Notes under the pieces: model-generated
Database searches by the model: none
Told to the model about the DNA's origin: nothing
What the model saw: the letters and a program-made list of their open reading frames with translations, nothing else
Shown: piece by piece, positions 42,101 to 45,100 of the stretch
Layout: each line of letters begins with the position of its first letter
Position numbering within the stretch: the stretch's first letter is position 1
Translations under genes and position numbers: made by a program
Source of the DNA: Cepaea nemoralis
Lineage: Eukaryota; Mollusca; Gastropoda; Stylommatophora; Helicidae
Length of the DNA stretch: 64,000 nt
Assembly (NCBI GenBank): GCA_014155875.1
Contig: JACEFZ010027754.1
Location: forward strand, 62,001-126,000
Reading direction: 5' to 3'

Positions 42101-45100
42101 TGAGTGGATACCGACTGCAGACCAGTCTGGTTTGTGCGGGAACGGCCCGGGGCGAACGAAATGCCCAATATATTGAAGTGAGGAATTAAAGCAGCCATGA
42201 GCAGGATGTAACGATTCCCTCAGTGAGCCCAGCACCAGGGCGCTATGTGTCGGCCCTGCAATTGTGGAAGCCACCCTGGCTGGTGGAAAATGCCATGGAC
42301 TGTCCTTGCCTTCCTTTGAGGAATGACCATTAAGTCTTCGACTGTTCCAACTCGGCCAGTTGGGTTGTGGATGGTACCGCAAAAATGAGTCTCCCCCAGG
42401 AATGCTACCTGGTCAGAAAAGCATGCTAAAGTCGGATGTGTTGGCCTATGGGTTTCGGCCCAAGGGCGCATAACTTAGACACACCGCAATCACATCTGAA
42501 AAAACACTCCGGATGAACGCAAAGAAGAAGAAGAAGAAGAAATTCTGAAAGTTTCTGGTACCCACTTTTGTTAGACTGAGTCGACTCCAGAACTGTATTG
42601 ATCAGAAACATAATCCTGCCTTTGCTGGAACTCGAACCTGGACTAGTCTGTTGAAACTACATGTTAGATGAGTCACTCGTGGATCATCATCACCATCTGT
42701 CTTGCCAGCTGGCATAGGTGTTGTCTCTCCACAGATCTCAGAACATGGTGCTGTGTATGAACTCTGCTGATGATATCCCTCCATCCAACATCATTTCCCT
42801 TGGTCTGCCTCCCACTGATTTTTCCTGTTGTCCCGATGTTTTCCAAACCCCCTCTTTCCATTCATCATCATAATGTGCCATGCCGATAAGTGTGGGCAGT
42901 CATGTTTCGCCATCTCACACAATCATCAGAATTGTGGATCAGCTTTGTGTTCTTGTCTCGATCATACCATGTGGTCAGATCATCCAGGTATTTACTTCTC
43001 TGCCTTCCTCTTTGTTCTTCTCTTCCCCCCCCCCCCCCCTCAATCTTGCCAGTCACCAAGTTTTCTAGTTTATTTCTTCTCATAACGTGACCAGAATATT
43101 GTGACAGTCTTCCCATTTCAAAACTTAATGAAGTTTTTCTCTTTCGTATTGTTGTATGTAATGTTCTGCTTGTATTAACCCCTTCCAAGCAGTCATTGTT
43201 AGTTACTCTAGCAGTCCAAGATATTCATGACATTCACTTCAGGAACCACATCTCTGTTGCTTCCAAGCGCTTCTTAATTTGTTAATTTATGTTGTATGGT
43301 TCACTGCTATACACGAAGACAGGTTTTATATCACATTTCAGTACTCTCTTTCTGACATTCAATGACGGTAACTTATTGTATAAGATGCTCGTGGATATCT
43401 GAAAGTTATCTCTCGCGCCAAATAAATAACAAATATAACAAATATGCTGAGTCGGAGTTATATTTCATTTCTCCTTTTACAAAAATGTGATTCTTCAACA
43501 GGTCTGCAATGAAAATTCTCTGTTCAAGAGTGAAGCTCGCTACTTGGTTCGCAGGCGTGACCCAGATCTGTGGGCTGCAGTGCTAAGTGAGGATAATGAG
43601 TTCAAGAGACAACTGATTGATCAGGTCTGTCAAAGCTTTCTTAAGATTCTTGTCTATTGTAATGTATGTACACTCTGTTTCTGCACGTTTTGTTTTGGGG
43701 AGATGTTTTAAAAACAGAGATATACTGTATCACATGAACATAGATCTAACTAAATGCATTATCACATGTGTGTGTGTGTGGGGCACATAAGGGAAAGAAA
43801 GGGGTTTGGCATGGCTGAGAGGTTGAACACACTTGCGCTTTAAATTTCTCTGGTGACTGCGGCATAGTGGGTTAAATCCACACACTAGTTGGACTTAAAT
43901 GTTGACTTCTAGCCCTTAATTTGGGGACGTAAATTACAAGTACCTCTGAAGTTGAAGGAGGGTTTGTTTAATGTCAAGAGGCACTGGTAAAAGGAAATCT
44001 AGCCCCTCATGCAAAAATTAGTCTAGTGCACTCACTAGTAGCAGTTACGGGTAGTAATAGAATGTGTGTGGACCCCTCTGCTGTGTGTCCACCGTGACGA
44101 GGTAGAGGGGCTTGTGCGTCCCAATGACCCCAAGAGCTATGCCGACGGTAGCACAGCTACTGGTAAGGCCACCCATGTCGGACAGGTCAAGGGAGAGGGA
44201 CCAGACGAAGAGACACACAAACCTGCTGCCTTGTAGGTATGCATAAAATTTGGTGGAACTGCGGTAAAGCTGTGAAAGTTTAAACAATATATAATGACAC
44301 AAAGTAGTGCAGCTTTACATAACAGAGTTACGACACATACAGAACGTTGCGGCGGTTAGCCTTCATCAGCAAACAAACACATTCACAAACACAACATACA
44401 GTCAAGGAGAACTCCTGTGACTACATTAGAAGGTGATGACAGGACGAGAGGAACAAATGCATGGAAAAATGGAAGCAATGAAGAGGAAATGAGAATTGAC
44501 AAAATGTTAATTGAAAAGAATGTTAGTCGAAGAAAATGTTTAATAGAAAAACTGTTTATAGAGAAAAAAAACCAAAAACTGTATACTCACCTCACGTACG
44601 GACCTGTGAATGTTTACGGAAATCTCAGGTGTATTTTTATAACGGTGCTGGATGTTACGGTACAGTGAACACATAGAAAGAAGGGGGCGGGGTAGGAGGC
44701 GTGTAAGATTGACCACGGCCCCATTGTGTTGTTGGTCTGAATGGACTGGTGTGTAGGAACACGCGTTCTACATAGACACACTTCAACAGACAAAATGCTA
44801 GTGTATGTTGACATGCAAGAAGAGAGAGAGAGAGAGAGAGAGGAGAGCGAGAGAGAGAGAGAGACAGAGAGAGACAGAGAGAGGAAAAGTGCCTGCGACC
44901 TACCACATGGGGTATATTGTAACCTACGAAATAGTCAGTATGGTTGCTAGTCATACAACGCGCTTCAGGAGCCCCTCGCCCAGTCCTAGAGTTGTTGGGG
45001 TTGTGTAAGATCCAACCACTAGCAATGCACGTGAAGAAGGTATGCACAGAGAGGCCAGATGTAAGAGGTGAGAGAGAGGGAGAGAGAGAGTGAGAGAGAG

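Follow-up and report, generated by a model that had tools for sequence, protein, structure and literature searches.

How full-length RNA is obtained from LINEs without a clear promoter is an open question in most animals. The question is raised in a concrete form by a LINE of the gastropod Cepaea nemoralis, at the 5′ end of which a sequence-only reading had claimed the complete topology of a hepatitis delta virus (HDV)-like ribozyme. The element lies in a stretch of 64,000 nt (assembly GCA_014155875.1, contig JACEFZ010027754.1, positions 62,001 to 126,000), which was analysed as a whole and is referred to here as the window. Ribozymes of the HDV-like type have already been described at the 5′ ends of LINEs, in R2, L1Tc/ingi and others, and the putative snail ribozyme seems to be a new case of this known kind, from an animal. 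As set out below, it is very probable that the first ~150 nt of this gastropod LINE, probably a member of the Ingi clade, and those of its deleted derivatives constitute an HDV-like self-cleaving ribozyme, with the cut before C44073.

Anatomy of the putative ribozyme

All segments named in the claimed topology were found in place between 44073 and 44219 (Table 1). The nested double-pseudoknot order P1, P2, P3–L3, P3′, P1′, P4, J4/2, P2′ was present in three copies, namely in the LINE itself and in two short non-coding elements of the window, here called A and B. The 5′ strand of P1 is C-rich and starts with a C in all three ribozymes, and a C-N-R-A motif containing the putative catalytic C stands ahead of P2′, as CGAA in the LINE and as CTAA in A and B. 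Regarding P1.1, the G at position 3 of L3 and the C that follows P1 are identical in the three copies, giving at most one G–C pair. The ribozyme of hepatitis delta virus is likewise ordered P1–P2–P3–L3–P4–catalytic C, but it differs in the 5′ strand of P1, which is C-rich here, and in P1.1, which here is probably a single G–C pair.

Table 1. Features of the LINE, of the short elements A and B and of their predicted ribozymes (window coordinates)
Feature	Position	Strand	Details
Putative HDV-like ribozyme, LINE 5′ end	44073–44219	+	from segment reading, descriptor and copy alignment
P1 of LINE ribozyme	44073–44079 / 44104–44110	+	CCCCTCT / AGAGGGG, 7 bp
P2 of LINE ribozyme	44082–44089 / 44212–44219	+	TGTGTGTC / GACACACA, 8 bp
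P3 of LINE ribozyme	44091–44093 / 44101–44103	+	ACC / GGT, 3 bp
L3 of LINE ribozyme	44094–44100	+	GTGACGA, 7 nt
P4 of LINE ribozyme	44118–44122 / 44197–44201	+	GTCCC / GGGAC
CNRA of LINE ribozyme	44206–44209	+	CGAA; C44206 is the putative catalytic C
Left target-site duplication of LINE	44059–44073	+	AGAATGTGTGTGGAC; last C is C1 of the ribozyme
Right target-site duplication of LINE	51578–51592	+	AGAATGTGTGTGGAC
LINE 5′UTR ahead of nested insertion	44220–44239	+	44228–44239 is one 12-bp flanking repeat
Nested insertion in LINE 5′UTR	44240–46627	.	~2.4 kb; flanking repeats GCCTTGTAGGTA, 12 bp
Inverted repeats of nested insertion	44282–44574 / 46334–46627		294 bp, 99.7% identity
Remainder of LINE 5′UTR	46628–46866	+	with ~118-bp tandem duplication
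Endonuclease part	46867–47817	+	97.5% identical to P0001 residues 1–317
Reverse transcriptase and RNase H	47816–50725	+	99.1% identical to P0001 residues 311–1282; frame different from endonuclease
LINE 3′UTR	50726–51577	+	about four 103-bp tandem repeats (50739–51128), (GAA)n tail
Short non-coding element A (SIDE-like)	41140–42539	+	
Putative ribozyme of A	41140–41271	+	P1 CTCCCCC/GGGGGAG, P2 TGTGTCTC/GAGACACA, P3 ACC/GGT, L3 TTGCCGT, CTAA
Left target-site duplication of A	41128–41139	+	AAATTCTGAAAG; right copy 42540–42551
Short non-coding element B (SIDE-like)	11210–12874	−	
Putative ribozyme of B	12874–12743	−	P1 CTCCCCC/GGGGGAG, P2 TGTGTCTC/GAGACACA, P3 ACC/GGT, L3 TTGACGT, CTAA
Target-site duplication of B	12875–12885 and 11199–11209		AGATCAGTATC; flanks B (−)
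Decayed fourth ribozyme copy	57324–57460	−	P3 lost, CTAT replaces CNRA

Covariation of the paired segments

Base pairs were counted in an alignment of the LINE, A and B ribozymes, leaving out the decayed copy near 57460(−), which would lower the counts. Each of the 69 cells of the core (23 pairs in three copies) held a standard pair, and four pairs had undergone two-sided compensatory changes (P1 pairs 2, 5 and 7, and P2 pair 6). When the alignment was slid as a control, 30–69.6% of the cells were paired, with at most one two-sided change. In a shuffle control the observed value was reached in 5 of 500 shuffles, with three rows of which two are alike at all changed pairs; we estimate that little better than this is attainable with three rows, and the support, real as it is, is thin. 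In all four double changes the LINE stands against A and B, two close relatives, and the changes may thus represent few independent events. The P4 region forms a longer hairpin with a consensus of 21 pairs; three of these show two-sided changes, and in six one of the three sequences fails to pair or has a gap. The ribozyme had been said to fall if the pairs of P1 and P2 did not covary in an alignment of many family copies; they were seen to covary, in three copies only.

Searches by topology, family model and folding energy

A topology descriptor (P1 of 7 bp, P2 of 8 bp, P3 of three Watson–Crick pairs, L3 of 6–8 nt, and CNRA) matched three loci in the window, at 41139–41141(+), 44073(+) and 12873–12874(−), overlapping or neighbouring registers of one locus being counted once. 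In 353.7 Mb of dinucleotide-shuffled window, comprising 5526 strand shuffles, the same descriptor matched at 141 start positions, with one match or more in 117 of the shuffles, which corresponds to a chance rate of approximately 4 start positions per 10 Mb. Topology descriptors do match randomly, as was evident when P2 was relaxed to at least 5 bp: this looser version gave 27 matches in 20 shuffled strands, one of them with a P2 of at least 8 bp, and two extra, unrelated weak matches in the window. The latter, at 25352(−) and 14740(−) with P2 of 5–6 bp, were absent again at a P2 of 8 bp and were taken as chance. That the resemblance to HDV as a whole is fortuitous is nevertheless barely credible, considering how rarely the 8-bp descriptor matches shuffled DNA and that the three loci each lie at the start of an element and carry compensatory changes.

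A covariance-model search of HDV-like families around the ribozyme, which had been suggested as a check, came out negative. With Rfam 15, no match of HDV type was obtained in the whole window at gathering score, in 43900–44500 at E up to 1, or, with E relaxed to 10, around any of the three intact copies; copy A gave two weak matches to other families (E 1.4 and 7.5), far under the gathering scores. The silence of Rfam was not counted as a refutation, since published search requirements for HDV-like ribozymes are called too restrictive for the L1Tc/ingi type in the accessible part of PMC4035085. The energy of the nested fold was not unusual for the LINE (z −0.66) or A (z −0.34), and z was −3.13 for B. 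The best nested fold was without P2 or P3 as such, the folding program being unable to form pseudoknots, and whole-structure folding energy is not informative as a test of the ribozyme.

The lack of Rfam recognition and the weak P1.1 would also suit a structured 5′UTR domain, involved in translation or RNP binding and descended from a ribozyme whose cleavage has been lost in the snail lineage. There are precedents: the 5′UTR of L1Tc has been proposed to switch to a translation structure after cleavage (PMC4035085), and certain copies of Pr77 are reported to have lost activity (PMC4035085; PMC5509151). We nonetheless find a domain of this kind improbable, as three of the four copies retain all core pairs and the CNRA, and element starts lie at the predicted cut in these three. 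A correct fold is in itself no guarantee of cleavage: a sow bug R2 sequence folds well and cleavage was not seen, as described in PMC3774820.

The LINE and its relatives

Downstream of the predicted ribozyme, the LINE encodes an APE-type endonuclease, a reverse transcriptase and an RNase H, with the nested insertion at 44240–46627 separating the ribozyme from the ORF. Its inverted repeats, the left one of which begins 42 bp inside the insertion, enclose a microsatellite core that is rich in CT, and the ~118-bp tandem duplication (46627–46853) is located directly ahead of the ORF. The description of the element as a single-ORF LINE does not apply to the window copy, which is read in two overlapping frames, but it does apply to a 97–99% identical relative, the 1282-aa protein P0001. 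As P0001 aligns to both pieces, the family encodes one protein, and it is between the domains that the window copy is interrupted.

The Ingi clade is characterised by a single ORF comprising an APE-type endonuclease, a reverse transcriptase and an RNase H, an arrangement which the family displays in P0001 and the window copy in two frames. The LINE protein has 1176 relatives in total; two of the 120 listed were named, and both are gastropod (Batillaria attramentaria P0052, 49%, and Littorina saxatilis P0067, 46%, among the matches listed). According to a 2024 survey (PMC11203168), Ingi sequences occur in large numbers in Batillaria and in certain further gastropods. Together, the protein relatives and the survey point to a gastropod host and suggest that the LINE probably belongs to the Ingi clade. 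At the DNA level, searches of viral and prokaryote contigs by exact pattern gave no relative, the 10 and 21 stretches matched by protein-guided scans included none, and phage records had none either, all of which is expected for animal DNA.

Position of the predicted cut

The cut had been predicted at the boundary between the element and its target-site duplication, and the boundary lies there in all three intact copies, exactly in two of them and with an ambiguity of one base in the LINE. The LINE duplication is 15 bp long and its last C doubles as the first base of P1, which leaves the boundary uncertain by a single base. The duplications of A and B stop exactly before the first base of P1, and those of the three elements range from 11 to 15 bp. 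C1 is the first base of both ribozyme and element in three of three intact copies, and this coincidence is what cleavage just before C1 predicts.

Short elements and further family copies

Elements A and B are 1.4–1.7 kb long and are 78 and 84% alike across two long stretches. They have in common with the LINE a 5′ end of ~150 nt (70–72% identity) and a 3′ end of several hundred nt (matches of 72–80%), while no coding match to P0001 was detected in either at E up to 0.01. Like SIDEs, they thus keep both the 5′ and the 3′ end of a LINE, are devoid of its ORF and possess duplications of their own. They are probably internally deleted, non-autonomous derivatives, moved by the LINE protein via the shared 3′ region. 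At 70–80% identity, their parent may be a sister LINE and not the one in the window.

One place in A (41693–41788) matches the 103-bp repeat units of the LINE 3′UTR. Between the ribozyme and the 3′ region, A (41350–41620) and the matching part of B contain G+C-rich repeats that look hairpin-like by eye; these gave no BLAST match in the LINE 5′UTR, and structured RNA is a possible reading of them.

When the three copies were built into a covariance model, with P2 omitted as a pseudoknot, the model recovered them along with the fourth copy, matched at 57459–57324(−) with E 4.2e-5, bringing the 5′ ends recognised in the window to four, three intact and one decayed. Four further matches of this model (E 1 to 7.3) were taken as chance. 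At least seven further 3′ ends of the family were observed (1735–1943, 9192–9343, 15364–15503, 15905–16318, 26876–27021, 28725–28873 and 58438–58555). Most of them bear a (GAA)n-type tail, and the covariance-model search recognised no 5′ end for them. Judging by these extra 3′ ends, the snail genome seems to contain many copies of the family. A separate tandem-repetitive stretch at 33147–34599 (−) is open in several frames, with ORFs of 151–351 codons.

Comparison with Pr77 of L1Tc/ingi and with R2

The closest parallel is Pr77 of L1Tc, the sequence of which is printed in pieces in the accessible part of PMC4748587 (a primer for positions 1–15, CCACC at 16–20, TCAA at 21–24 and CGTG at 25–28). 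In A and B, CCACC at positions 17–21 is followed by four bases and by CGTG at 26–29. Over 13 bases, measured against the printed Pr77 pieces, there were 10 matches for A, 11 for B and 9 for the LINE, which reads CCACC-N4-CGAG, with CGAG at +26 and CGTG only at +21. The motif CCACCN4CGNGGT occurred in the window only at the three ribozymes.

According to PMC4748587, CGTG at 25–28 is an essential promoter motif of Pr77, and in L1Tc one and the same stretch serves as promoter and ribozyme. In the snail elements, the 5′ end could be conserved as an internal promoter in DNA (Pr77/DPE-like), the ribozyme fold being secondary or inactive, and the CGTG of A and B, at +26 to +29, does lie near the stretch required in Pr77. 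A DNA motif leaves unexplained, however, the paired changes in P1 and P2, whose strands are 24 and 122 nt apart, respectively, as well as the conserved C-N-R-A, and the LINE copy deviates from the promoter motif at +26. A promoter in place of a working ribozyme is thus an unlikely account, while promoter function as such is compatible with the ribozyme, the two readings not being mutually exclusive.

The ribozyme reading gains from the wider likeness to L1Tc/Pr77 and its partners NARTc, RIME and SIDER. In both systems a ribozyme, in the snail a predicted one, occupies the 5′ terminus of an endonuclease–RT–RNase H LINE and of its short partners, with C at +1, the cut at the element start (predicted here) and, in A and B, CCACC-N4-CGTG in P3–L3. 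The anatomy of A and B corresponds to the SIDE/NARTc/RIME class of short elements described for L1Tc/ingi, and the five mapped trypanosomatid ribozymes cleave 5′ of C1 (PMC4035085, accessible part). P1.1 and the way in which the G–C pairs of P1 are oriented are named there as differences between the trypanosomatid type and HDV. On the other hand, the snail copies reside in an animal and are known here from sequence, the LINE copy has CGAG where Pr77 has CGTG, and the window ribozymes are 132–147 nt long with a long P4 hairpin, compared to 78–96 nt for most constructs in the part of PMC4035085 consulted. The shared C1, the C-rich P1 and, in A and B, CCACC-N4-CGTG favour common descent with the L1Tc/ingi ribozyme, although the 13-base likeness falls inside the functional core and could have arisen by convergence.

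R2 elements have an HDV-like ribozyme at the 5′ end, as is predicted for the snail LINE. Their endonuclease is restriction-like, in contrast to the APE-type endonuclease of the window LINE, which also encodes an RNase H. R2 is, from the literature available, site-specific in 28S rDNA, whereas the LINE, A and B are flanked by duplications of 11–15 bp. Internally deleted non-autonomous R2 elements, termed R2 SIDEs, exist as well (PMC3414825, in part).

Proposed mechanism

RNA reading through from upstream, or started internally near the 5′ end, would adopt the nested double-pseudoknot fold. C44206 would act as the general acid/base, as in known ribozymes of the HDV-like type, and the RNA would be cut just 5′ of C44073, a position proposed by analogy with R2 and L1Tc. 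Such self-cleavage would free a LINE transcript starting exactly at the first base of the element. Being located downstream of the cut, the ribozyme would stay in the RNA and be copied into every new full-length insertion. The LINE protein would probably also move the short elements in trans, through the shared 3′ region.

Implications

No ingi ribozyme of a mollusc or gastropod was encountered in the literature searched, the coverage of which was partial, with most subscription papers and Repbase outside it. A bolder interpretation, which we put forward tentatively and consider doubtful at present, is that the 5′ terminus is an animal Pr77 module, acting as a promoter in DNA and as a ribozyme in RNA. 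In this view the module, inherited by ingi LINEs together with their short partners, would be older than the split between animals and trypanosomatids, or would have passed from one group to the other, and it would be widespread and undescribed in molluscs. The snail copies offer a test of whether the promoter–ribozyme of L1Tc/ingi (Pr77) is ancient and common to animals and trypanosomatids, and they would extend comparisons among HDV-like ribozymes to a new group of animals. The Ingi type is reported as abundant in some gastropods (PMC11203168, in part). A ribozyme defining the 5′ end, on the short partners as well, would be a direct and testable answer to how full-length RNA is made where a LINE lacks a clear promoter.
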